64,000 bases of DNA from positions 15,174-79,173 of the forward strand of contig NZ_HE978513.1 in NCBI RefSeq assembly GCF_000311725.1, written 5' to 3'. The notes below the pieces were generated by a model. That model saw only the letters and a program-made list of their open reading frames with translations. It did no database searches and was not told the DNA's origin. Origin of the DNA: Robertmurraya massiliosenegalensis JC6 (GTDB lineage: Bacteria > Bacillota > Bacilli > Bacillales > Cytobacillaceae). This document shows, in pieces, positions 1 through 12,322 of this stretch. Each line of letters begins with the position of its first letter. The stretch's first letter is position 1. A program made the translations under genes and the position numbers.

Positions 1-199
1 CATTGATAAGAAAAAACGCATAAAAAAATACCCATTCGTTGATTTGATTAGAACCACATAACCATACAGAGAAGTTGTCCTCTATATGATAACGAATCAT
101 AACCAAACGAAGCAACTCACCAAATTCTATAAAAGCTACTTTTTTAAAATAATAAGTGTATTGAAACTTATCTAAAATAGATGATTGGTATCCGCTCAT
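1..199 (-). CDS. Hypothetical protein, 5' part only (runs off the window start)
   Basis: On the minus strand an ATG at 199 opens a frame that stays open for 66 codons to the window edge. The residues are rich in aromatics (Phe, Tyr, Trp) and look coding rather than random. I do not recognise the family. No convincing ribosome binding site precedes the ATG, so the true start could differ or the frame could be the tail of a decayed gene. A stop-free frame this long in AT-rich DNA is unlikely but not impossible by chance. It lies next to mobile-element debris, so it may itself be a remnant. Confidence 0.35.
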   Translation of the reverse strand, partial: MSGYQSSILDKFQYTYYFKKVAFIEFGELLRLVMIRYHIEDNFSVWLCGSNQINEWVFFYAFFLIN

Positions 200-594
200 G
201 GGCAGGTGATAGGTGATAATTAGTATTTGCAGCAAACTATTTTTTTAGCCATCTTTCTTTGTAATATGCTCTAGTGTCATTTTTAAGATGATGTATATCT
301 TCCGAGTTTGTTTTTTATTACTGCCTGGTATTCGCCATCCTTTGGAATCTAAAGCCAACTCTTTGAGGGAATTTTCAAGCTTAATATCTCCAACAGCGGC
401 TTTTCGTTATTTTTTATTGATTGATAACGAAAAGATGTCTGATGGATTTTTACACGGTATGTACAAATCTAGAATCCACTATTAACCGAGGAAGATAGGA
501 TAGAGAGGTGTTTCTTATATTAAATAGTGAATTCCACTCCCTACCTGACTCATTCAATGTTTGTGCTCTAAATATTTGGGAGTGTAGTACCACA
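200..594. other. Gene-poor stretch with a possible coding remnant
   Basis: No intact gene is seen. On the minus strand a stop-bounded frame of about 53 codons (245-406) has a coding-like, Lys- and Leu-rich composition but no start, so it may be the 3' end of a decayed gene. The plus-strand frame beginning at 288 has no ribosome binding site and no recognisable residues. The last hundred bases lead into the IS110-type transposase start. Confidence 0.3.
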
Positions 595-1224
595 ATGGAA
601 GTTTTTATCGAACGATGTGCCGGTTTAGATGTACATCTAGAAACAATCTTCGCTTGTGTTATTTATGGAAATCGAGAAGATAAGATGTTTCAAGAAATCG
701 AAACTTTTCCAACTTTAACCAAGGATCTTTTTCGATTATTGAAATGGATTGAGGTCCATGAAGTTACTCACATTGCAATGGAGAGCACCAGAGTATACGG
801 AAAACAGTATACAACATCTTAGAAGATTTTTTCGATATCACTTTGGCGAATCCACAAAGAAACAAAAATGTTCAAGAAAGAAACATAGATATTTCAGATA
901 CTGAGTGGATAGCTAAATTACTTCGACATGAGTTTTGTTCCACCTCAAGAAATTCGCAAACTTCGAGGTTTAACTAGACTGCGTAAGAAATGGATTGATC
1001 ATGTAACTTCTGAAAAAAACGAATACAGAAAGCGCTGGAGTCTTCAAACGTTAAACTCAGCTTAATTATTTCAGTCATTTTTTGGGTGTCAGGAAGAAAG
1101 CTTCTCCATAAACTAATTTCTCAAGGATATGTCGATGCTCACGATGTAGAGTCCAACATTCATGGAAGCATCATGAGTAAAAAACAAAAAATTACAGATT
1201 CCCTTTTTGGCACGATAAATGAAC
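595..1224 (+). pseudogene. IS110-family transposase, N-terminal half (split and frameshifted)
   Basis: The frame starting at ATG 595 gives the N-terminal DEDD-type domain of IS110 transposases: the first acidic residue in the GLDVH segment, then the conserved HIAMEST.RVYG block. The reading frame is lost at about 815 but continues in other frames (NILEDFF, later NVQERNIDISDTEWIAKLL and EIRKLRGLTRLRKK) with at least two further shifts to about 1224. There the similarity stops abruptly in the hinge before the C-terminal Transposase_20 domain. The missing C-terminal part resumes on the same strand at 6873, and joining the two restores a sensible reading frame. It is therefore one IS110 gene split by a 5.6-kb insertion. 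Confidence 0.75.
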
Positions 1225-1413
1225 TGTTATTGCTATCTTAAATTACCTGAAGTTGATGATATTGCCTGTCCAGAATTTGACGGTTATAATGTCATTATAT
1301 TTTATAGGGAATTTTAACATTTATAATTCTGTAGAAAGGAAAAGACGCCACCCATAATGTATATCTGCTCAAACAGATATAAAGGAGACGTCCCCAAACA
1401 AATCTTATGAGTA

Positions 1414-1905
1414 TTGTATCAGATTATCAACTTATTGAAAATACTCTACCAGGCGTTCTTGGTTAGAAGTGTGGGGAGGATTCCTTCTCCTTGTTGTGGG
1501 AAAAGCATGCGTGTTATTGATACTCGAAATAGAAAATCAAAAGAAGGTTCTGGAAAGACAAAAATTTATAATATTCGCCGTCTACGTTGTGGTCAATGTA
1601 GACGGATTCATCATGAAATGCCAGATTTCTTGGTTCCATATAAGAGATATGAGTCGGTTCTTTCGAACCCTTCCATGCATGACGTTCCAGCTGATGAATC
1701 TATCTGGTTTCGTTGGCATAAGTGGTTTGATAGTTTTGTAGACTATTGGATTAACTGCTTCATATCCATTATGCTTCGAACGAAACAGGAAATGATCCCT
1801 CTGAATTTGACTTCCACAAATTTAGAGACCGCACTTCAAAGAATTGGACGACTGGTGGGTTCACTTTACATTATCAATATGCACATTATTTATTCAACGT
1901 ATTCA
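1414..1905 (+). CDS. Zinc-ribbon DUF6431-like mobile-element protein
   Basis: A frame with TTG start at 1414, preceded by an AAAGGAGACG sequence about 25 bases upstream, encodes a Cys-rich N-terminal part. Its CC and CGQC pairs could bind zinc, followed by an RRIHHEMPDFLVPYKR block. This pattern resembles the DUF6431 family seen near transposases in Bacillus. Function is unknown; a zinc-binding role in transposition is inference. The frame runs on to 2001, but the last part is the antisense of the convergent recombinase gene, so the real product probably ends, or was truncated, near 1905. The position of the start is uncertain because spacing to the ribosome binding site is long. Confidence 0.45.
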
Positions 1906-2421
1906 ACCAAGTCAATAAACCCTCATTTTTTCCCATACTGGTTCATCAGTAGGAGATACATCTACATACGCTTTCTCAATTGCTTCTCTTTTTTGCTTTG
2001 AATCCGTTTTCGCATAGATTTCTGTTACCTGTACTGAGCAGTGACCTAGTATATCTCTAATATAAACGAGATTCACTCCTGCTTGAAGGAGGTGCATTGC
2101 CTTAGAGTGTCTTAGACAGTGACAGGAAAATACCTCAGGTATTAATATTTTATTTTCCTCGCATGCTAGTTTCTTATATTTGTCTACAATGTAATTGCTC
2201 CCCGTCCTAGTCAGTTTTACTCTTCTCCTATAAAAAACAAAGGATATAAGTTAGCGGAGTTTCGCAAAAGATTCTGCTCTACCATGTATTTTTTAACAAT
2301 CTGCATTGTTGGCTCCATTAATGGTAAGATCCTAGCTTTGTTCTCTTTACCAATCAACTTTATAATGTAAGGTTTGTCGAATCTAATCATAGAAGGTGTT
2401 AAGTCAATAATTTCCTGCACC

Positions 2422-2680
2422 TGTATTTGATAATTCAAATAGAGCCACTTCGCTCGTGAAAACGTGAGCCACTCCTTTTCCAGTTAGAACACGTCTTTAC
2501 ATGGAGTGAGAGGCATGATAGGTTTGTTGCCATTCGAAACAACCTTGGCGTTTCGCCTTTCGAGCAGAATCACGCCTCTGGAGGCTCCATTTCAAGACAT
2601 TCCAGATTTTCCAGTGACAATGTTAAAAGTGGCTTACATTTTGGTAATCGGAGTGGCTCAAAATGCAGTTATCAAAAACA
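2422..2680. mobile_element. IS21-like internal-deletion remnant (MITE-like), 259 bp
   Basis: The segment is flanked by the direct repeat GCACC (2417-2421 and 2681-2685). It starts TGTATTTGATAATTC and ends with the inverted counterpart (read inward: TGTTTTTGATAACTG). Both ends continue into GAGCCAC. Further GAGCCACT copies lie just inside each end (around 2470 and 2630). TG...CA ends, multiple internal terminal repeats and a short target duplication are typical of IS21-family elements. No istA or istB frame is left. Removing it joins TGARV directly to QEIIDLT in the recombinase gene, which confirms the boundaries. The family assignment is inferred from end structure only. Confidence 0.6.
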
Positions 2681-2918
2681 GCACCCTTGCTCCTGTGTCA
2701 TACATTAGTGTTAATAATGCTAAATCTCGCCGTCCAGCTTCTGTATTGAGATTGGGCATTGTTAACAGTAGTATAATTCCATCAAGGGTTAGATAGTTAA
2801 CCGATTTCTTTTCTGTCTTTTTAACTGGAATAGAGTAAGCCCGAAATATAAAAATAAGCATACCTTTTCGGTATGCACGACGAATAGCCAGCTAACTGAT
2901 GAAATTTTAGATAGTTGG

Positions 2919-4469
2919 CTATTTTGCACATGTCAGTTGGATGTTTTTTGACCAAGGCATGTAATTATGTAAAGTTTCTGGTTGTGAATGGAACGGTAAA
3001 TTTGGAAGTTCCGTCAATATCTTCACTAGGTATTGATAAAAATCTATGCCGTTTGCTTTAGCAGTTTCTGCTAAACTTAAACAAATGGTGTTCGCCTTTG
3101 CACCGGCTTCACTAACAGAGAAAAGCCAATTTTTTCGACCGATCACATTTGGACGAATCGCATTTTCTGCTGGATTATTGTCTATTTCAATTCGACCATC
3201 GTATAGAAAAGCTTTTAATCCCTCTACTCGATTTAATGTATAATCGGCAGCTTTCGCTAAGGCATTCTTACCGAAGAAAGGCGATTCATCTACCCATTTT
3301 AGAAACTGTTCTACAATTGGTTTTGAATGTTTTTGTCGGGCCTTTCGGCGTTTCCCCGGCGAGAGATTCTTAAATTGACGTTCTAACCGATATAATTGAT
3401 CGCAATATTTAACGCCAATTTGTCCGTTTTTGCTATCAGCTTTCAGCCAATAACGTCGTACATGTGCCCAACAATTGGCGAAAATGATATCGAGTAAATT
3501 CCCATATGCCGAATAGCCATCGCATATCACGGTTCCTTTAAATCCTCCTGTAAAACCTTCTAGAACTGCTCGACTTCGCGATAAAGCACTATGGAAAAGA
3601 ACGATAATCGTCCCTTGGCTTGCTACGCTTCGGAAGATCCAATTGTATGTATTTGATTGACCTGACTTTCCGTCAGAACGATTAAGAATTTGCGCATACG
3701 TTTCATCCGCATGCAGGACAGATTTTGAAAGTAGTACCTGCTTCATCTCCTGATAAATCGGTAAAAGCCAATCTTCCGCTACACGAATCACCCAATTCGA
3801 TAAATTCTTATCATTGGTAAGAAGACCATATCGATCCCATTCCTTCACCTGACGGTAAAGAGGCAAGTACTGGATAAACTTATCGTAGTTGAGTTTTGCT
3901 ATAACAGTCGGTCCTGCAATACTACGCAGAATGACAGGCTGGGATGCTTTCCCACGTTTCATTTGCGCTTTTTGTGAGAAATCCTTTTTACAGTGCTTAC
4001 ATTCATACGCATGCTCAACATGCTGGATGCGTATCATTTTTGCTGGAATGAACTTCGCTTCTTCGCGCACAATCGTGGTACCTGCTTCTGTCATTTAATC
4101 GTGGCAACAGTCACACTCTGTATCATCGGGATGATGGTGAATTTCTTCTATTTCAATCCCCTCATGAAAAGAATCATTTCGTTACTTCTTATTTAATTTA
4201 CGTACAACGGTATAACGAATGGTCTCCGTGCTTTGTTTTTCTGTGTGCTCAGAATCGCTAAAAGACGGATCATCTTCGAATAAAGAACCTTGCCCGTCAG
4301 GAGCTTAGTACTTTGATTTTTCCGATTTTGACCCATACAAGGCTTTCGTTAATTGGCGAACTTGTTCTGTAAGAACTTCTATTTGTTTGGATAAGTCTTT
4401 GTTTTGTTCTTTCATATATGCTAGTTGATCTTCAAGAAGTTGCATCACTTTTTCATTAGAAGCGCTCAT
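2919..4469 (-). pseudogene. tnpC: IS66 TnpC transposase with three in-frame TAA codons
   Basis: TnpC is the DDE transposase of IS66 elements. Starting at ATG 4469 a single uninterrupted frame runs to 2919. It has a leucine-zipper-like coiled coil at the N-terminus (EQVRQLTKALYGSKSEK), a zinc-binding segment (CDCCH, then YECKHCKKDF) and the IS66 catalytic region (DETYAQI, a WAHVRRYW segment, and a C-terminal DNNPAENAIRP block). Only nonsense changes break it: TAA at 4305-4307, 4182-4184 and 4095-4097, with no frameshift. Translation could restart at 4094 and give a 391-residue protein lacking the N-terminal DNA-binding region. Activity is unlikely. Confidence 0.8.
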
Positions 4470-4534
4470 CAGCTCATTCACCCCATTCCGTTCAGTATAG
4501 GATATGAATGATTATACCATCTAGATAGAGGAGT

Positions 4535-4888
4535 TTAAAAGACACCTTTTGCAGATTTCGCAATCGCTTTTGGTTGCTGCAACGATAACCCTTCTAACAA
4601 CCAGCGAAGCTCCTGTTGTGAAAGATTCCGTAGTTCATTTTCATCTTTTGGCCATTGAAGCTTGCCATTATCTAATCGCTTATAAAGCATGGCGAATCCG
4701 TCACTGTCAAAATATAAGCATTTATAACGGTCCTTGCTCCATCCAGAAAATAAAAAGATAGAATCACCATACGGATCTAATTTCAATGAATCTTGAATGA
4801 GTGTTGCTAGGCCATCAATGCCTTTTCGCATGTCCGTTTTGCCACAAATGATATAGATATTTTGCACGCTTGTGAAATCATGCTTCAT
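4535..4888 (-). CDS. tnpB: IS66 family accessory protein TnpB
   Basis: This 117-residue protein is the intact TnpB (IS66 Orf2) of the element. The hallmark sequence ICGKTDMRKGIDGLATLI near the N-terminus and the LFSGWSKDRYKCLYFDSDGF and LYKRLDNGKLQWP blocks in the middle identify it. It is required together with TnpA and TnpC for IS66 transposition; its biochemical role is not well defined. Its ATG overlaps the ancestral tnpA stop (ATGA). It is the only one of the three IS66 genes here without a nonsense codon. Confidence 0.85.
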   Translation of the reverse strand: MKHDFTSVQNIYIICGKTDMRKGIDGLATLIQDSLKLDPYGDSIFLFSGWSKDRYKCLYFDSDGFAMLYKRLDNGKLQWPKDENELRNLSQQELRWLLEGLSLQQPKAIAKSAKGVF

Positions 4889-4914
4889 TTATTGTTCAAC
4901 TCCTTCATGATCGT

Positions 4915-5079
4915 TTAGATGTTGCGCTCATCTACACCATTGAAGAAGGAGATTTCAAGAGTTTCTGTTTTAATTACACAGTGCGTTCCAGAGGGATTTT
5001 GAGGTAAATTGACAGAAGAAGGTTCGTCAGTGATAGGATCTAGTGTCACAGGGACTATGGTAAGTTTTTTCTCTAGCAT
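4915..5079 (-). pseudogene. tnpA: IS66 accessory protein TnpA, shortened by a premature TAA
   Basis: An ATG at 5079 follows a strong GAGGAGGTG ribosome binding site. The 54-residue frame ends ETLEISFFNGVDERNI and then TAA at 4915-4917. Beyond that codon the same frame continues TIMKELNNK and stops at TGA overlapping the tnpB start, so the ancestral gene ended at about 4885. The FFNGV block is typical of the small TnpA-type protein of IS66. The nonsense codon removes only about ten residues. Confidence 0.6.
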
Positions 5080-5499
5080 AAAAGGCACCTCCTCGAATTG
5101 ATATGTCTATCGTACCGAAGGTGTCAACTTATTTATATGCGTTATTTAATTACGGGCTTACGGAATAGAGAAGATTTTCTGCCATTCTACTAGATTGTCT
5201 GGGTTCTCGTATTACAGGTATTTAAAGAATGAGTGGAGAGCAGCTAATCGTGACATTTCTTGTTGAAGTACTGCACTGATGCTTATCTTCTGTCCAATCT
5301 AAATAATTCATCACTATACTTTTAGTTATCTTATTTAAGGTTAACTTCTCTACAGAAATTTTCTTTTCGTCTTTTAGGAAACGAAGAAATAGTATAAATG
5401 TATCTCTGTAAGATGCGATGGTATTTTTGCTTGCTCCAATTTCACCTGGGAGAAACTTGGAGAGGAAACCAGTTAGATAATATGAATAGTCTGTAGGTT

Positions 5500-6150
5500 T
5501 CATGGCAATTTTACCTCCGGAAACAAGTATGGAAAAAAGTAATCGCTCGGATTTTGTTTCGACAAACAATTCTCACTGTATTGAATACACACAGTTTTTA
5601 ATGAATCAGAAAGTAGAAGCACTCGATCACAGCCATTTTTTTCACGAATAGTAATGTAGCCTTCATCGAGATTTAAAGATTTACATTTAAGGTTTAATGC
5701 ATCTCTCACTCTCAATCCGCATCCATAAATCATGCGAAAAACAACAGGGAGAATATGCCTAATAGTTGTATTTCCTTTAATCTCTATGGTTTCACTTGCA
5801 TGAAAGAATGATTCTAACTCTTCCTTTGAGAAGATAAATGGTGTAAAAGTGGTTTTATAGGATTTTAGTTGCCTCGGAATGTATGATTCGTAACCTAGTT
5901 GATTCAGGTAAATAGAAAAAATTATTATAGTATTGACCCTCTTGTATCTTGTAACGTCAGATTCATTCGGACGTTTTTCTGCCCATTTAATAGCTAATTC
6001 TTTAGTCAACCCGATAGAGGTTGCTCCATTCTCAACTGTAAAATCATCAAACATCTTAAAAGTATGTTTTTTATCAAATGCATATCCCAAATTTCTTTTA
6101 AATGAAATATATTGTTCAATGAGTAGAGCATTAACTCAATAGAATTTCAT
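5500..6150 (-). pseudogene. Second tyrosine recombinase of the trio, C-terminal catalytic part lost
   Basis: The ancestral start is ATG 6150 behind GGAGG, directly after the stop of the upstream recombinase (TAA ATG). Codon 5 is TGA (MKFY*), after which the frame is open to 5500. The N-terminal half has the SAM-like DNA-binding domain. Then comes the catalytic core beginning (FRMIYGCGLRVRDALNLK holds the first catalytic Arg, and REKNGCDRVLLLS the beta-hairpin Lys region). The HxxR, LGH and tyrosine boxes are absent: the frame jumps from DYFFPYLF to PEVKLP and stop, suggesting an internal deletion. It cannot catalyse strand exchange. Confidence 0.7.
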
Positions 6151-6486
6151 TTAGTTCGCCTCCTGATAATGAGAATAAGGCGATGTTGGTGGCGCTACAT
6201 CCAAAGCACATTGACGAAGTGATTCTAGATCAATTCTAAGATAGGTTTTTGCTCTCAGTATTGGTATGACCAAGAACCTCCGAGATAACTGTAACTGGGG
6301 TCTTCTTTTCTAATAAAATTCCTGCGAGGCTATGACGTAATGCATGTGGACCATGCTTCTTCTTATCGATGTTGCTAATACCTGCTCGTTTTAAATAAAA
6401 GGAAACAATACTATGTAGGGTTAGTTCCTCAAGTTTGTCATAAGGTTGTCCAGCACGAATAAATATATAGGATAATTCCGATCTTC
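6151..6486 (-). pseudogene. First tyrosine recombinase of the trio, C-terminal fragment
   Basis: On the minus strand an open frame of about 110 residues without a start ends in TAA at 6151-6153. It contains the C-terminal catalytic boxes of a tyrosine recombinase: HALRHSLAG (HxxR), LGHTN and the nucleophile in KTYLRIDLESLRQ. The N-terminal two thirds are missing, and the similarity stops near 6486. The stop codon is immediately followed by the ATG of the second recombinase, with the GGAGG for that gene inside this coding end. It is the 5'-most member of the three-gene array. Confidence 0.7.
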
Positions 6487-6539
6487 ACCTTCCATATTTC
6501 AGATAATCAATTATCGTATTTCCAACTTGACAGATATAC

Positions 6540-6776
6540 ATGCAGTTTCACAAGGACTATGGATGTTGGTTAAAAGTTGTAGGAGATTACGGAAAAGCAA
6601 TGTATCCAGGGGAGTCTTTTCACCTCCTTCTTGGTAACAAACTACTTATACCTTGTCGGCTAAAAGTAGCTGGGCAACGACTTTGGTATGTAAAAATAGG
6701 AACGGAACATGTAAGGCTTAATTTGAGAATGAACGAAATCTATGAGATTCAAATTTTAAATATTTTGGAAGCTTGA
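6540..6776 (+). CDS. Small DUF5348-like protein
   Basis: This is a 78-residue protein with no membrane segment or signal peptide. The pattern GE.F.LLLGNKLLIPCRL, then RLWYV and RLNLR..E.YEIQI, resembles the DUF5348 family of small beta-rich Firmicute proteins often carried by plasmids and integrative elements. The function is unknown. It lies inside the RIT-like element on the opposite strand to the recombinases, 54 bases from the first of them. It has no clear ribosome binding site ahead of ATG 6540, so expression is doubtful. Confidence 0.45.
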   Translation: MQFHKDYGCWLKVVGDYGKAMYPGESFHLLLGNKLLIPCRLKVAGQRLWYVKIGTEHVRLNLRMNEIYEIQILNILEA

Positions 6777-6872
6777 TTATATATAACTTCCCATTCTTTT
6801 TGGTCATCAACTCAAGCAAAATAAGGAAAACTCGGTCAGTCAGTTGTTGGGCCTATGAAATTATCATTAACA

Positions 6873-7341
6873 ACGAACATCAAATCTTTTTAATTCATCA
6901 ATCTTGCAACACATCATTTATTTAGAACCCTTAATCTCTGAGCTCGAGGCACGAGTATCCGACTTATTAAAAAACTTTGAAGAAGAAATAAACCTACCTC
7001 TTACGATTCCAAGTATTAAGAAAGATACTGCGGCTATCATTATTGTGGAAATTGGAGTAGATATGTGACAATTCCCTACTTCTTAACATTTAGCTTCCTG
7101 GGCAGGTGTCTCGCCAGGTAATCACGAAAGTGCTGGAAAACGTAAAAGTACTCGCACTACAAAACGGAATCCTCACATAAAATCTGCAATGTGTGAAGCT
7201 ACATGGGCAATATCAAGAACCAGGAATCGTTGGTTAGCTACAAAATAATGGTCAATTGCCTCCAGACGAGGAAAGAAAAAAACACTCGTTGCGAAATCGC
7301 ATCGAATGCTTAGAAGTATCTACTTCATATTAATAAACTAG
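6873..7341 (+). pseudogene. IS110-family transposase, C-terminal half (frameshifted, nonsense codons)
   Basis: This segment continues the gene broken at 1224. The first residues NEHQIFLIHQS join the upstream fragment in frame. After a one-base shift come the linker helix (LQHIIYLEPLISELEARVSDLL) and the Transposase_20 domain: TIPSIKKDTAAIIIVEIG, then SWAGVSPGN and the GKRKSTRT, NPHIKSAMCEATWA blocks. TGA and TAA codons interrupt it after VEIGVDM and at FPTS*HLASW. The Ser-containing catalytic region near SWAGVSPGN is still readable. The gene is clearly dead. Confidence 0.75.
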
Positions 7342-7620
7342 GAGCCTTCCAAAGAAATGCAGAGTAACTAGTATCACCAAAACCAAATAGATTTATTCAA
7401 AGTTACCTTCCGACAGATAGCTCTGATTTCTTATTTGGCTTTTATAGGTAATTTATAGGGTATCCCTGCTCAAACAAATGTATACAGGGTATACAGGAGA
7501 CCTCTGACTTTTTTTATTTTCATAGAAAAAGGAGAATCCCGGAAAAAGAAGAAGCAAAATAGGAATGCGAAGCGCAATTTTTTGGTGTACTGAACGGGGC
7601 TCCCTTCCAATACAAAAAAA
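7342..7620. other. Gene-free stretch with a motif shared with 1300-1395
   Basis: No gene is seen. Around 7440-7495 a TATAGGG tract, then CTGCTCAAACA, then GTATACAGGAGAC echoes the leader of the DUF6431-like gene (TATAGGG near 1306, CTGCTCAAACA at about 1367, ATATAAAGGAGAC at 1378). It probably marks the remnant of a second copy of that element. The rest shows no recognisable feature. Confidence 0.3.
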
Positions 7621-7872
7621 TCAGCTGCTTAACATTGTTTTGATTAGGAATGAATTTACACATAATAATGAGCTTGACTGTACATGATCATTACAGGCTG
7701 TAGCTTCAATTATTTCCACGCCTTTTCTTTCACTTAATGTACAAAGTATTTCTCCTATATCCTTTTTAACCTTTCCATAAATTACTTGCCTTCTATACTT
7801 CGGCGCAAACACGATGTGATACTTACAATTACATGTTGTGTGTGCAAAACTATTAGTGTCTTTTGACGTCAA
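7621..7872 (-). pseudogene. tnpA: IS200/IS605-type TnpA transposase, truncated
   Basis: The first 55 or so residues match the Y1 (HUH) transposase TnpA of IS200 elements: NSFAHTTCNCKYHIVFAPKYRRQVIYG, then GEILCTLSERKGVEIIEATACNDHV. In active proteins the DH.H motif follows at this point and the catalytic tyrosine comes about 60 residues later. Here the sequence after DHV changes to an unrelated tail (QSSSLLCV...), so the second His of HUH and the tyrosine are gone. The product (83 residues) is about half the normal length of roughly 150. A large hairpin precedes it. Confidence 0.75.
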
Positions 7873-7940
7873 AACTCCTCCGTATGCTGATATTTGGGTT
7901 GGCGAACCAAAAATATTTTAGCACCGCTGAGGAGTTTTTT
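7871..7940 (-). repeat. IS200-type left-end hairpin upstream of tnpA
   Basis: Read on the minus strand, AACTCCTC at one side pairs with GAGGAGTT at the other. Inside, GGTGCTAAAATATTTTTGGTT pairs imperfectly with AACCCAAATATCAGCAT around a small loop. Such a structure at the left end and 5' untranslated region is typical of IS200 elements, where it limits tnpA expression. It directly adjoins the truncated tnpA start. Confidence 0.5.
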
Positions 7941-8105
7941 TATACCTCGTTAGAAGCTTTTTGGAACCCTAGGCATAGCCCAGAGTTTTCTTTTCCTCAA
8001 AAAGAGCCCAAAACATTGGATTAGTAAGGTTTTGAACCGTTTTTTTGGTGTTAAAGATGTTACAGATGAAAGAGTCAATTATTTAGCATATTCTACTCGC
8101 CCTTA
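7941..8105. other. Short stretch between IS200 debris and ypjB
   Basis: There is no intact gene. A plus-strand frame (about 8008-8105) reads KHWISKVLNRFFGVKDVTDERVNYLAYSTRP, which has a coding look and may be the fragment of another transposase, but I do not recognise it. No clear terminator for ypjB is visible here. Confidence 0.25.
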
Positions 8106-8894
8106 CTACATTCTTTTCTTCTCTCTTTCTCGTTCCTTATCCCCTTTATACTTTCTCCAACCGACATAGGATAATGTAACGATGATAATACTACCTGTTG
8201 TAATAATCACCCACCAAAGAGAAGGATCTGCTTCATCTTCGGACATCTGATTAAACAGATCCTTTAAATCCGTTTCTAAAGAGACGAGTTCCTGTTGGCT
8301 TTCTTCGTCCGTTAATAATCGTGGCCGGTATTCATCAATGAAATGAATTCTGGCGTCAATTTGTTGGACTCTTTGCACAGGAACATCTAGTTTCATACTA
8401 GGATAAATCACTTCATAAAGTGACAGAAAAGAATTTAAATGGGAATGGAAATTCTCACTGTTTCCCTCTAATGCTGCATCCTTCATTCCGCCAAATACAG
8501 CCATCATCGGGCCTTCCATTTCGGTCCATAATGGCTCTTTAGTTGATGTGATCGCATCCATCGCTAAACGAAATTTGGTCACTCGATTAATTCGTTCATC
8601 ATGAGCCAAATTCCCGTTTCCCATGGCTGCAATGGCTTCATCTTGCGCAAGCGTTACAATTCGTAATTCATCTATTGAGAAACCGTGACTTTCCATTGTA
8701 TAGGCAAGAAACTCATTTGAAAAATACTCAAGAAGCTTCTTTGCATCTTCGTATCTCGATGATTTCACCAATTGTAGAGCTTCATCAGAAATTTGATCAA
8801 GCTTTTCAATAGAGGAAATATGATGATTTGCTTGTATAGTTACCGGTGTAAGTATTAGGATTACAATTAAAAATATAGCGGCTTTTAGCTTCAT
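8106..8894 (-). CDS. ypjB: Sporulation protein YpjB
   Basis: The 262-residue protein has an N-terminal signal/anchor segment (residues 5-22) and a C-terminal membrane helix (about 225-247, ITTGSIIIVTLSYVGW) followed by a highly charged KGDKEREREKKRM tail. The helical domain between them would lie outside the cytoplasmic membrane. Length, topology and position after ypjA match YpjB of Bacillus subtilis (about 264 residues), a conserved sporulation-associated protein whose molecular role is unknown. ATG 8894 is chosen because AGGAGGGA sits seven bases upstream. It is the last gene of the conserved block before the mobile-element cluster. Confidence 0.85.
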   Translation of the reverse strand: MKLKAAIFLIVILILTPVTIQANHHISSIEKLDQISDEALQLVKSSRYEDAKKLLEYFSNEFLAYTMESHGFSIDELRIVTLAQDEAIAAMGNGNLAHDERINRVTKFRLAMDAITSTKEPLWTEMEGPMMAVFGGMKDAALEGNSENFHSHLNSFLSLYEVIYPSMKLDVPVQRVQQIDARIHFIDEYRPRLLTDEESQQELVSLETDLKDLFNQMSEDEADPSLWWVIITTGSIIIVTLSYVGWRKYKGDKEREREKKRM

Positions 8895-8976
8895 ACTTGT
8901 CCCTCCTCACATTACTATTAAATGGTATGAGAACTTGGACAAGGTTAGACCAAAAATATTGGTGCTAGCTGCTAAT

Positions 8977-9570
8977 TCACTTTAGCTGTAGTGTAAAACG
9001 AGTCTTTCTTAAACCAAAATAATAAGCTATCGCAATAGAAGCGATACTTAGCCAAAAAGTGAAGTAACCGATTTGTGGAATATAGTCATCTAGCATATGA
9101 TATCGCGGCATCATAAAAAAGACATAATCAATCACATCATTATGTAATGTCCATATAGCAGCAACTACCAGGTGCCATAACTTAAATCGGTAAAATGGAG
9201 CATATAATATCCCTTGTATCGCCATGGCACCGTGTGATAGTACAAGCATCATTCCGATTCCATCAATTTCACCGTTGATCATAAATACCAATACATTCAT
9301 GACAACGGCCCAAATACCGTATTTAAAAAGCGTCACCATTGCTAATGTTTCAAATAGTGGCCAATTTCTGCCGAGTAAAAAAGCGATGAGCACAAATAAG
9401 AAAAAAAGGCTGGCTGTTGGACTATCTGGTACAAACGCTAGAAAAATGGGTGGGGTAGCTGCCAATTGACTTTTATACCAATAGTATCCATAAACCGTAC
9501 CGAAAAAATTAACGATTAATAGTAAAGATAGAATTGAGCGATTAGCTAAAAGCGAGTACATCCATTTCAA
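8977..9570 (-). CDS. ypjA: DUF1405 membrane protein YpjA
   Basis: This 197-residue integral membrane protein has about six predicted helices and a short cytoplasmic end (RKTRFTLQLK). It belongs to the DUF1405 family, found in Bacillaceae next to qcrC and ypjB; no biochemical function is known. The start is taken as TTG 9570 because GAGGTG lies seven bases upstream. The first ATG (9561) would be 16 bases from that site, which is too far. It lies 131 bases downstream of qcrC and 82 upstream of ypjB. Confidence 0.8.
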   Translation of the reverse strand: MKWMYSLLANRSILSLLLIVNFFGTVYGYYWYKSQLAATPPIFLAFVPDSPTASLFFLFVLIAFLLGRNWPLFETLAMVTLFKYGIWAVVMNVLVFMINGEIDGIGMMLVLSHGAMAIQGILYAPFYRFKLWHLVVAAIWTLHNDVIDYVFFMMPRYHMLDDYIPQIGYFTFWLSIASIAIAYYFGLRKTRFTLQLK

Positions 9571-9660
9571 TATATTTCACCTCATTATATTTTCCACATC
9601 TTTCTTATAGTAACATATTTCCTTTGTGAACCGATTGTTTTATCATCCTTTTAACTAGAT

Positions 9661-9692
9661 AGAAAAAAGCTGACGAAGTTATCGTCAGCTTT
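9661..9692 (-). terminator. Rho-independent terminator after qcrC
   Basis: AAAGCTGACGA pairs with TCGTCAGCTTT around a five-base loop and is followed on the minus strand by a run of T. It ends the qcrABC operon. Confidence 0.85.
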
Positions 9693-9701
9693 AACATACT
9701 A

Positions 9702-10472
9702 TTATTCACTTTCAAGCGTAGAGATGAATTCAGCCAATGTTTGTAGCTCTTCATCAGTACCTTGGAACAATCCTGCTGGCATAGCACCACGACCGTTTTG
9801 TGCAATTTCAGCAACTTCTTCAGGTGTTAAACCAGTATCAATAAGCGGTGGTGAACCTGCTCCACCTTGCAGATCTCCTCCATGGCAAGTCACACAACCA
9901 TTTGCTTCAAAAATCTTATAGCCATCAGATTCTTTATCAATTTCTGCTTCTGCTACAATCTGACCTTGGAGTTTGGCAGCTTCCCAGTCATGCTGGTCTA
10001 CTGATTCCCAAGTAAGGTACGTAATACCTGCTAGTGCTAGAAGCATAAAGCCTGTTGCTAATGGACGCTTTGACGGGCGACGCTCTGGGCCTCTATCAAT
10101 GAATGGTGCGAGTAATAATGCACCAAAAGCAAGTCCAGGAATAACAAGAGCTCCGATAATATTATAAGGACCTGATGCGAAAGAATACTTCAATAGCTGA
10201 TACAAGAATAAGAAATACCAGTCAGGTAATGGAATATATGCTGTGTCACTTGGATCTGCAATTTTTTCGAGCGGTGGTTGATGCGCCGCAGTTAAACATA
10301 AAAATCCAACAAGAAAAACAGCACCGATCAGCCATTCTTTTAAAAGAAAGTTTGGCCAAAACGCCTCTGTTTTACCAGGATATTCCGAATAATCCTTTGG
10401 TATATTCGGTTTTCGACCTGAAGCTGCGACACGTGAATCTCCCACAAACTTCATACCTTTTCCACGATGCAT
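9702..10472 (-). CDS. qcrC: Menaquinol-cytochrome c reductase cytochrome b/c subunit QcrC
   Basis: QcrC is the fused subunit of the Bacillus bc-type complex. Its N-terminal half corresponds to subunit IV of b6f complexes (helices 3-4, with the quinol-site PLPDWYFLFLYQ block), and its C-terminal half is a membrane-tethered cytochrome c domain. The heme-binding motif CVTCH is near residue 190, and the likely axial Met lies in GAMPAG. It passes electrons from menaquinol toward cytochrome c on the outer face of the membrane. The start is ATG 10472 (MHRGKGMKFVGDSRV), which has AAAGGAGGGG upstream and matches B. subtilis; an upstream in-frame start would place the ribosome site inside the gene. Confidence 0.95.
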   Translation of the reverse strand: MHRGKGMKFVGDSRVAASGRKPNIPKDYSEYPGKTEAFWPNFLLKEWLIGAVFLVGFLCLTAAHQPPLEKIADPSDTAYIPLPDWYFLFLYQLLKYSFASGPYNIIGALVIPGLAFGALLLAPFIDRGPERRPSKRPLATGFMLLALAGITYLTWESVDQHDWEAAKLQGQIVAEAEIDKESDGYKIFEANGCVTCHGGDLQGGAGSPPLIDTGLTPEEVAEIAQNGRGAMPAGLFQGTDEELQTLAEFISTLESE

Positions 10473-10523
10473 TGAACAATTCCCCTCCTTTAAGTCATTC
10501 ACAAATCATGCGTGTTTATGATT

Positions 10524-11198
10524 TTACAATGGACCTGAAATACCTTGTTTACGAATCATCATAAAGTGGGCAGCCATCAATGCAAACAATGCAGCAGGTA
10601 AGAAGAATACATGGATTGCAAAGAATCGAGTAATTGTCTGTGCACCTATAATATCTGAGTGTCCTGCAATTAGGATCTTCAAATATTCACCTATGAATGG
10701 AACTGATTCGATAATGGTAATCGTTACCTTTGTTGCAAATAACGCTTTCATATCCCATGGTAATAAATAACCTGTTAAACCAAGGGCAAGCATGACGAAG
10801 AAAATAAGTACTCCAACAATCCAGTTAAGCTCACGTGGTTTCTTATAAGCTCCTTGGAAGAAAACACGTAACGTATGTAAAAACATCATTACGATAACTA
10901 AGCTAGCACCCCAGTGGTGCATCCCGCGGACAATCTGTCCGAAAGCAACTTCGTTTTGTAAATAATAGATGGATTCCCATGCATTTTTAATATCTGGAAC
11001 GTAGTACATCGTTAAGAACATACCAGACAATATTTGAATTACCGTAACAAAGAACGTTAGTCCACCGAAACAGTACACAAATGCAGAGAAGTGATGTGCA
11101 GGGTTTACATGTTCAGGTACTTCATGGTCTGCAATATCCCGCCACAAAGGCGTAATATCTAAACGCTCGTCTACCCAATCATAAATTTTATTCAACAA
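10524..11198 (-). CDS. qcrB: Menaquinol-cytochrome c reductase cytochrome b subunit QcrB
   Basis: QcrB (224 residues) is the four-helix cytochrome b of the b6f-like menaquinol oxidase. It carries two b hemes across the cytoplasmic membrane. The paired histidines of helices 2 and 4 are visible (RGMHHWGASLV, HTLRVF and the later FFAIHVFFLP, MAAHFMMIRKQG). Cys43-type covalent heme attachment seen in b6f-like proteins is plausible but not checked. It lies three bases after qcrA and 51 before qcrC, so all three are one transcript. Confidence 0.95.
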   Translation of the reverse strand: MLNKIYDWVDERLDITPLWRDIADHEVPEHVNPAHHFSAFVYCFGGLTFFVTVIQILSGMFLTMYYVPDIKNAWESIYYLQNEVAFGQIVRGMHHWGASLVIVMMFLHTLRVFFQGAYKKPRELNWIVGVLIFFVMLALGLTGYLLPWDMKALFATKVTITIIESVPFIGEYLKILIAGHSDIIGAQTITRFFAIHVFFLPAALFALMAAHFMMIRKQGISGPL

Positions 11199-11201
11199 GA
11201 T

Positions 11202-11708
11202 TTACGCCTCCTTTCGCGGTTCTGCTTTACCTAAAGCTAAGTAACCGTCAGCATCTTTGTAAGGATACACGTCTAATGGAGCTGCTGGTGGTGTACCAGG
11301 TACGTTTGTACCATCCTTTGTATATAGCCCATTATGACATGGACAGAAGAAATGTTCAGGGTGTGTCTCATCCTTATTCCAGTCAACTGTACAACCTAAA
11401 TGTTTACAAACTGGAGATAATGCGATAATTTCACCTTTCTCATCCTTGTATACCCAAGCAGTATTTGTTACTTCTGAAGTGTACCAAGCATCTTTTTGTT
11501 CAAATGTAAAGTCAACGCGAACTGGTTCATTGGAAATTTCATCAATTTTTTGGTTTGTAACAATAAAATCACCAGCTGCATTGTGCTTCAAAACTGGGTC
11601 AACTGCAAATCGGACCATTGGCATTAACATTCCTGCAGCCATAAATCCACCTACACCAGTAAGAGTATAGTTTAGGAATTGACGTCTTGTTACGCGTTGT
11701 TTGCTCAT
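11202..11708 (-). CDS. qcrA: Rieske iron-sulfur subunit QcrA of menaquinol-cytochrome c reductase
   Basis: This protein of 168 residues has a twin-arginine-like leader (RVTRRQFLNYT) and a single anchoring helix, then the Rieske fold. The [2Fe-2S] ligands are in the CKHLGC and CPCHNG boxes (about residues 115 and 135). It accepts electrons from menaquinol on the outer side of the membrane. The start is ATG 11708, with GAGGGGGG closely upstream; the longer in-frame extension has no ribosome site. It is the first gene of qcrABC, with a sigma-A-like promoter at 11783-11811. Confidence 0.95.
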   Translation of the reverse strand: MSKQRVTRRQFLNYTLTGVGGFMAAGMLMPMVRFAVDPVLKHNAAGDFIVTNQKIDEISNEPVRVDFTFEQKDAWYTSEVTNTAWVYKDEKGEIIALSPVCKHLGCTVDWNKDETHPEHFFCPCHNGLYTKDGTNVPGTPPAAPLDVYPYKDADGYLALGKAEPRKEA

Positions 11709-11782
11709 ACCTTTCCCCCCTCTATCATGAAATGGTAGTCCAACGGACATAAATAAACACAATATAAAACTAGGACATAACA

Positions 11783-11811
11783 ATGATATATCAATCTATA
11801 CTTTAGGTCAA
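11783..11811 (-). promoter_or_regulatory. Sigma-A-type promoter of qcrABC
   Basis: On the minus strand TTGACC and TATCAT are separated by 17 bases. The expected start site is near 11776, giving a leader of about 68 bases to qcrA. Confidence 0.5.
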
Positions 11812-11857
11812 TATAATAAATTGCTAAAGGATGGGTGCTGAGTGATTAATATCTCCA

Positions 11858-12322
11858 TTAGTCATTATTTTGCCACTTTTTCACAAATAAATGAATCAAT
11901 TGACTAATTTGATCCTCTAAAATTTGATTTCGATACTTATCATCCATGCTTTCCAGTGGTAGAGATGGTAACCAAATCAATGTTCCCTCTAGTTTTTCCT
12001 CTAATGATCTCCAATCACTATCAGATGTGATGTAGAAAATATGCTTGAATCCATACTTCTTAAACTCAGTTTCCCAATGGTTGATTAATTGTAAACGCCT
12101 ATCATCAGAATCACTCTTTAAATAGGGATAACCAGGAAGCATCATGAGCCTCCCTTTAAATTGGCGCTCTAGGGGAATGTTTAATAGAGAGATAAATTCA
12201 GTCATTGATGCTGATTGCTTGATATCGTCGCCAAACGATATAGGTAGCAGCGGTAACACGACCGTGTCTACATATTCTTTCGCTCCCAAATACATGTCAA
12301 TATCATTTGAAACCCATTTCAT
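11858..12322 (-). CDS. ypiF: DUF2487 protein YpiF
   Basis: This soluble protein of 154 residues belongs to DUF2487, a Bacillus family found between ypiB and qcrA. The sequence has an even mix of charged residues, no signal peptide and no membrane segment. Its role is unknown; linkage with qcr genes suggests but does not prove a connection with respiration. ATG 12322 is preferred over the GTG three codons earlier because TTGGAGTG sits at good spacing before the ATG and overlaps the GTG. Confidence 0.8.
   Translation of the reverse strand: MKWVSNDIDMYLGAKEYVDTVVLPLLPISFGDDIKQSASMTEFISLLNIPLERQFKGRLMMLPGYPYLKSDSDDRRLQLINHWETEFKKYGFKHIFYITSDSDWRSLEEKLEGTLIWLPSLPLESMDDKYRNQILEDQISQLIHLFVKKWQNND

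Follow-up and report, generated by a model that had tools for sequence, protein, structure and literature searches.

Remnant of a recombinase-in-trio element in a decayed stack of mobile elements of Robertmurraya massiliosenegalensis JC6, and a proposed two-site circle for the insertion of its relatives

The remnant of a recombinase-in-trio (RIT) element was investigated in a 64,000-bp stretch of DNA (the window) from Robertmurraya massiliosenegalensis JC6 (contig NZ_HE978513.1, positions 15,174 to 79,173; locus G000:C3:15174-79173), the genome of which comprises 4.96 Mb in 24 contigs. The first-pass annotation, made from the letters alone, had described the insert at 1225-6872 as a RIT-like transposon within a gene of the IS110 family (IS, insertion sequence). 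The recombinase trio is indeed enclosed in an interrupted IS110 gene and the outer break points were correctly placed. The RIT itself is a truncated passenger of a four-gene DDE transposon, which is given the working name TnX here and for which we know of no published name.

The outermost layer is a decayed IS110-family transposase gene on the plus strand, with its 5' part at 595-1224 and its 3' part at 6873-7341. The N-terminal piece matched PF01548 under the cut-off (E 1.3e-4) and the 54-aa C-terminal piece matched no family, while relatives show 65-77% DNA identity over longer matches. Both pieces are collinear, and uninterrupted by such an insert at the break, in 10 of the 11 relatives compared. 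Aligned to L081 and L087, the two parts in the window (550 or 595 to 1224, then 6872 to 7485 or 7531) join with a 7-base overlap, and L081 reads ..FGTLNEHQIFLIRQS across the break point. The near-identical 6-bp flanks that had been pointed out are present, as ATGAAC at 1219-1224 (plus strand) and as ACGAAC at 6873-6878, the first bases of the 3' part. As judged by these alignments, the earlier proposal of a single broken gene is confirmed: the two pieces form one IS110 gene, the break in which (1224/6873) is flanked by a near-perfect 6-bp duplication, and the empty site looked for in relatives exists.

The outer ends of the insert are assigned to TnX because relatives without the trio share them. 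In L018 and L019, from two genomes of the same family as the host, homology starts exactly at 1225 and ends at 1859 (about 79.5% identity), and it resumes at 6530 in L019 and at 6552 in L018. Between these ends, L018 encodes a DUF6431 protein, a transposase (rve, Mu-transpos_C), an AAA_22/TniB-like ATPase and a DUF5348-like protein (domains taken from L019); the last of these, 79 aa long in L018, matched no family. In the host genome itself, 6529-6872 recurs at 92% identity without the trio on contigs C6 and C16, with the same final base, and the C6 copy continues into what appears by eye to be the end of an ATPase gene. Copies of TnX with TGTT..AACA ends and no trio occur at L018, L019 and most of L099-L117, all from other members of the host's family, and 17 of 193 family genomes matched the L019 transposase at E 1e-80. 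Among 20 TnX loci checked for their ends (L018, L099-L117), 15 have 6-7-bp duplications outside TGT..ACA and one (L104) a 5-bp duplication; none was found in the remaining four (L101, L111, L116, L117). The copies with a duplication measure 3255-3297 bp. The best NCBIfam match of TnX is IS481, under the cut-off (172.8 of 224 bits).

The left end of TnX (TGTTATTGC..) and the 5' part of its DUF6431 gene occupy 1225-1859 of the window, and its right end with the DUF5348-like gene (6540-6776) occupies 6529-6872, terminating in ..CATTAACA (6865-6872), both on the plus strand. The TGTT..AACA ends and the ATGAAC/ACGAAC duplication are those of a TnX insertion. Of the four genes, part of that for DUF6431 and the DUF5348-like one are left, the transposase and ATPase genes are missing, and the lost stretch corresponds to L019 bases 646-2938 on the reverse strand. 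By homology, the window copy is recognised as a TnX remnant, and 1225 and 6872 as TnX ends, not RIT ends. The imperfect inverted ends seen in the first pass thus exist, as termini of TnX. Likewise the zinc-ribbon gene noted there proved to encode DUF6431 (E 4.8e-25) and the 78-aa gene is a weak match to DUF5348 (19.2 bits, cut-off 22.8), and both belong to TnX and not to the recombinase element. A search of plasmids with the DUF5348-like query gave nothing at 1e-5.

The RIT lies within TnX at 1863-6528 on the minus strand, with its A side to the right and its C side to the left. It is 89-91% identical in pieces to L118, a RIT of genome G034, and 73-77% identical to L005, an intact RIT trio of the host genome. 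L005 occupies a lone 3443-bp contig (C18, 1-3443), probably a collapsed repeat, from which its target sites are not readable. Pieces of three tyrosine-recombinase genes follow each other in A-B-C order in the window, all on the minus strand: the 3' part of ritA (6150-6528; 89% to L118 7238-7696, with four stops in the one frame tried), a degraded ritB with a Phage_integrase domain (5500-6142; PF00589, E 4.5e-10, one internal stop), and ritC, divided into a 5' part with a SAM-like N-terminal domain (5222-5569; PF02899, E 1.5e-6) and a 3' part (1863-2834). The predicted gene overlaps are found in the sequence, as TAAATG at the A/B junction and ATGA between B and C. The three overlapping genes are neither intact nor complete; the RIT catalytic-type proteins are present in pieces, and no whole gene was matched. 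The gene ritA is cut at 6528 and lacks its 5' part; the RIT end on the A side is gone as well, and the C-side end is cut at 1863, just beyond the inner repeat. Both outer ends are thus lost. The window RIT is, from its alignment to relatives, a remnant and not a whole RIT. The full ends and target site formerly attributed to it did not hold up, and intact RIT relatives end elsewhere, which is the kind of finding that the first-pass annotation had itself named as refuting its reading.

Two further insertions, missed in the earlier reading, lie in ritC. One is an IS66-family element (2835-5161, minus strand) with ends GTAAGCCCG/CGGGCTTAC and an 8-bp duplication, GGAATAGA (2827-2834 and 5162-5169). 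Its transposase (321.6 bits) and IS66_TnpB protein (104.4 bits) both score above the NCBIfam cut-off. With TnpB, transposase, inverted ends and 8-bp duplication it is an ordinary IS66 element, but its transposase frame is short, 391 aa against 526 aa in the L118 copy. The latter (L118:4868-7237) is about 71% identical to that of the window and interrupts ritB of the 90%-identical G034 RIT at a different point. RIT genes are themselves targeted by IS66. The other insertion, 259 bp long (2422-2680, without assigned strand), has TGT..ACA ends and a 5-bp duplication, GCACC (2417-2421 and 2681-2685), and is absent from L118 and L005. A search of the host genome for further copies returned the self-match only. 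By eye, it looks like a non-autonomous relative of TnX- or IS21-type elements. On the minus strand beside the IS110 remnant, a short frame (7621-7872) has the likeness, by eye, of an IS200/IS605-type transposase. No Rfam family was detected at gathering scores in window positions 1-12000.

Intact relatives were collected in a sample of 101 RIT loci, made of 20 stretches around 20 of 29 RitB matches, L005, and 80 named loci obtained by RitC alignment, which are the best 80 of at least 591 stretches. Two places occur twice between the RIT collections (L119/L140 and L125/L213), and L119 was excluded from alignment A1 for a stop within its stretch. Matches to A, B and C were found in all 21 loci checked, with A partial in L125, which starts at a contig end. 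Phage_integrase was detected in all three L005 proteins, and R172, H273, R276, H299 and Y308, which we take to be the catalytic residues of RitC, are invariant across 12 RitC proteins. Unlike the window copy, the relatives have terminal inverted repeats of their own, and near-identical copies have a body of 3453-3455 bp. According to the listed frames, L005 and L118 contain no DUF6431 or DUF5348 gene within the RIT.

A characteristic joint was recognised at one RIT end in 58 of the 101 loci: a 6-bp core, a 20-bp near-palindrome and the inverted 6-bp core. The joint rule called for at least 12 of 16 pairs plus an arm, the arm rules having been added since a first palindrome scan brought unrelated hairpins. 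The joint lies on the A side in 21 loci, on the C side in 33 and on both in four. Selection by the inner 10 pairs alone gave 61 places in 57 loci, at which pairing extends to pair 16 (4.67 of 6 pairs in the core) and then drops to 1.61 of 6 over the six that follow. Core matches amounted to 285 of 366, compared with a mean of 101 and a maximum of 134 in 1000 shuffles, and the far-junction and near cores agree at 197 of 282 bases (shuffled mean 76, maximum 109).

The origin of the joint was addressed with uninterrupted relatives of the target genes, taken from plasmids. The sequence of L136 runs CCGCAA-GGAGGA-palindrome-TCCACC-RIT-GGTGGA-GTAATATC. On a Peribacillus plasmid (L227), the uninterrupted ltrA gene of a group II intron reads CCGCAA-GGTGGA-GTAATATC with a single core, and L228, also uninterrupted, reads CCGCAA-GGTGGA-GTGATATC. 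Therefore the 6-bp core is duplicated, and the palindrome added, on insertion. Within G034, the match search for an empty IstB site returned two interrupted IstB copies only, and that for an empty group II intron site returned the query itself, one full-length match beside a RIT and five short matches.

The palindrome lies on one fixed side of the target in both RIT orientations, in 7/7 group II intron, 8/8 Walker A, 9/9 KGxxE, 7/7 RadC and 4/4 IS4-type sites. At the IS66 transposase sites, GRKN is on the palindrome side in 7/7, and L154 and L170 have it on both sides. The orientation of the palindrome, in contrast, is tied to the RIT: this holds for all 11 copies of the three lineages (L121-L124, L130-L133, L134-L136) whose palindrome is asymmetric and which occur in both placements. 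In L154, L170 and L174, both flanks are the same half of the target gene, inverted, with a palindrome at each end; the flank protein pieces are identical in L170 and L174 and similar in L154. Either the assembly mixes orientations at these loci or a true rearrangement has taken place. In L128, two similar left halves of DDE genes were seen by eye. Adjoining the intact RIT of L132, positions 482-2305 (minus strand) contain tyrosine-recombinase matches with 25-29% identity to RitA, B and C, perhaps another recombinase cluster. A RIT-type RitC (62% identical) was found in L159, a short contig in the bin of a Methanosarcinaceae archaeon, which a binning error could explain.

Targets were tallied for 63 loci, namely the 58 joints and five placed by hand (L118, L125, L143, L193, L213); the other 38 of the 101 were dropped. 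Flanks were sorted by sequence pattern, mainly on the palindrome side, after which both flanks of the 63 loci were checked in six frames (16 without the far flank). Forty-four joints are at one of eight conserved motifs, 37 of them in transposon or intron genes and seven in RadC. The motifs are KGxxE of DDE transposases (nine loci), Walker A (eight) and Walker B (one, set by eye) of IstB, PQGG of the group II intron (seven), HNHPSG of RadC (seven), IS66 transposase (seven), IS66 TnpB (one) and RWxIE of IS4-type transposases (four). KGxxE, Walker A and B, RadC HxHPSG and RWxIE presumably hold catalytic residues; PQGG and the IS66 TnpB motif are conserved, and no catalytic role is claimed for them. 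Pfam searches with chosen flank pieces confirm IstB, RVT_1, TnpB_IS66, RadC, DDE_Tnp_IS66 and DDE_Tnp_1. The piece of L119 taken for IstA and four other pieces (two of the queries being approximate) matched nothing in Pfam, and the names of these loci are therefore based on sequence pattern. In the six-frame check, GRKN was the one motif to appear on the wrong side, being present on either side of L154 and L170; the unassigned L167 also carries GRKN, and the IS4-type RWxIE is on the far side in 4/4.

In order to relate targets to descent, a RitC tree was built with fasttree from 102 rows, with long branches flagged. The eight target classes require eight changes on this tree (minimum 7), compared with a mean of 29.1 for shuffled labels, none of 200 shuffles being as low, a result to which near-copies contribute. 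Target class follows RitC descent. KGxxE and Walker A require two changes each, on distant RitC branches. L005 and L118, which represent the window lineage, fall among the 14 members of one clade; its seven labelled rows, from six distinct places, are all at KGxxE. The KG(K)(V/I)E codons of TnX transposases read AAAGG or AAGGG in 20 of 22 loci, the pattern not being found in L101 and L116, and the KGKVE site lies inside the TnX stretch that the window has lost. In L143, from an uncultured Desulfosporosinus, a RIT has landed at KGKVE in a transposase of the TnX type (65% over 199 aa), behind which comes a TnX-type ATPase (73%). The closest relative found, L118, is at KGKIE of another rve transposase (28% to that of TnX) and downstream of a DUF6431-like gene scoring just under the cut-off.

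With considerable confidence, the window is read as a decayed stack of mobile elements, and its RIT as a member of a group that would move as a circle with two inverted sites and a lineage-specific target core. TnX entered the IS110 gene and generated a 6-bp duplication, the RIT lies in TnX, and IS66 and the 259-bp element inserted into ritC; the junctions 1859/1863 and 6528/6529 lack most of TnX (transposase, ATPase) and both RIT ends. In the history proposed, the RIT would have inserted into the TnX transposase gene at the KGKVE codons, and two later deletions would have produced the present junctions. Because the window lineage uses KGxxE of DDE transposases, the RIT probably hit the TnX transposase before the deletions removed both of its ends. 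The window alone cannot prove this history, which is the likeliest one.

An alternative is a RIT transposon with its ends at 1225 and 6872, carrying the zinc-ribbon and DUF5348 genes. Imperfect inverted ends, 6-bp flanks and the trio are all there, but the same ends elsewhere bound a recombinase-free DDE transposon of 3.25-3.30 kb, 6529-6872 recurs without the trio in the host genome (with the C6 copy apparently reaching the ATPase gene end, by eye), and intact RITs have other ends; this reading is barely tenable. The whole insert as a single RIT is ruled out by TnX relatives with the same ends and no trio. The RIT could also have inserted straight into the DUF6431 gene at 1859, followed by a single deletion on the right, since the homologies to DUF6431 and to the RIT come within three bases of each other. 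This is judged improbable: the outer C arm and the core are absent at 1859, the site CTGGTGGG differs from the AAAGG core of the lineage, and every labelled row of the clade is at KGxxE.

For the intact relatives, the proposed circle joint would consist of two inverted recombination sites around the shared 20-bp palindrome, [C-arm|core6|palindrome] and [palindrome|core6'|A-arm]. Either site would recombine with a 6-bp target core, by which the core would be duplicated, the palindrome would come to lie on a fixed side of the target and the RIT would point either way. Such a double-site circle would account for both the fixed target side and the RIT-tied orientation of the palindrome. Inversion of the RIT in place between core and core', without any two-site circle, might give a similar pattern, as the two cores are inverted and L154, L170 and L174 have the same target-gene half at both ends. 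It would, however, fix the palindrome to the target, whereas it is fixed to the RIT in 11/11 copies of three lineages, which rules out inversion as the origin of both orientations; as an account of the palindrome pattern it is considered unlikely.

Each RIT lineage would have its own target core, and from these comparisons RITs seem often to insert, via the double landing site, in conserved and sometimes active-site codons in genes of other mobile elements. We lean slightly towards a wider view of RITs as hyperparasites of mobile elements, whose two-site circles would target cores in highly conserved and often catalytic codons, in genes for a transposase, a helper ATPase, the reverse transcriptase of an intron or RadC, and thereby break the host at its active site, with distant lineages sharing Walker A and DDE KGxxE. 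Inteins likewise choose active-site codons. A mere preference for well-conserved DNA of multicopy genes, with no meaning for mobile hosts, is a serious competitor to which somewhat less than an even chance is given: RadC, SSB and DUF932 are also targets, PQGG and the IS66 TnpB motif are to our knowledge conserved without being known as catalytic residues, and the target counts are raw ones, uncorrected for sequence conservation. Such a preference sits less well with the recurrence of both DDE KGxxE and IstB Walker A in lineages with distant RitC.

Several observations weigh against the stack and the two-site circle. Since both RIT ends are gone in the window, the original site is unreadable. 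No clear joint was found by the joint rule in 43 of the 101 loci, many of which are short contigs and five of which were put back by hand. Among the far-end cores, 16 of 47 match the near core at three or fewer of six bases. L154, L170, L174 and L199 carry two palindromes, one per end, a layout not expected from the simple model. Nineteen of the 63 joints are in other or unassigned sequence, where the Pfam names include SSB, AbiEii, Resolvase, DUF932, ORF6N, Phage_lysozyme, and DDE_Tnp_IS66 at another place. Finally, one of three plasmid RITs, that of pHG1 from Cupriavidus necator, has the joint, which is lacking in the scanned stretches of L231 and L232. Both the joint and the targeting of particular motifs lend themselves to direct tests, as they predict the circle joint, the 6-bp core and the landing place of a new copy, and they allow an objective delimitation of RITs in genomes. 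In a decayed locus, the apparent ends may belong to a different layer of the nest.

TnX resembles what we take to be its kin, the Tn552/Tn5053/Tn7-like and IS481-like elements, in its rve/Mu-transpos_C transposase, TniB-like/AAA_22 ATPase, TGT..ACA ends and mostly 6-7-bp duplications, and differs from them in the additional DUF6431 gene and small DUF5348-like gene. The RITs of Cupriavidus also have three adjacent, slightly overlapping tyrosine-recombinase genes, a body of about 3.45 kb and inverted end repeats; the window copy, by contrast, has lost both ends and is divided by an IS66. Plasmid pHG1 of C. necator is rich in RITs, and a 28-9-bp inverted repeat, an overlapping palindrome and insertions in the transposase gene of a Tn6049-type transposon have been described (PMC3414803). 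The pHG1 RitC is 43% identical to that of L118 over 97%, and the A side of the pHG1 RIT reads TAGCGC-AAATGTGCTGCAGCACATTT-GCGCTA, with 16/16 pairs, TAGCGC being found after the C end; this canonical RIT has the same 6-20-6 joint as the relatives analysed here. Two sequential core-binding domains are reported for RitA (PMC8138268), for which the lengths of 415 aa in L118 and 427 aa in L005 are sufficient. One RIT is located in radC of an integrative and conjugative element (PMC3414803, PMC10214605), and target specificity, empty site and movement of RITs are listed as not tested (PMC10214605). An account of the double site or of a motif-level target rule was not found in the literature searched, which did not include Ricker et al. 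(2013, Plasmid 70:226), the principal publication on RITs.

Tn554, SE and GInt resemble RITs in having more than one tyrosine recombinase and target-specific insertion, with a 6-bp footprint for SE and Tn554 (PMC10214605). They differ in their gene sets, and the text available on them makes no mention of a shared 20-bp palindrome flanked by inverted cores. RadC, targeted by seven RITs here, is also used by Tn554. Several GInts insert at ssb genes (PMC5385486) and, in a similar manner, one of the RITs described here (L146) is located in an SSB gene.

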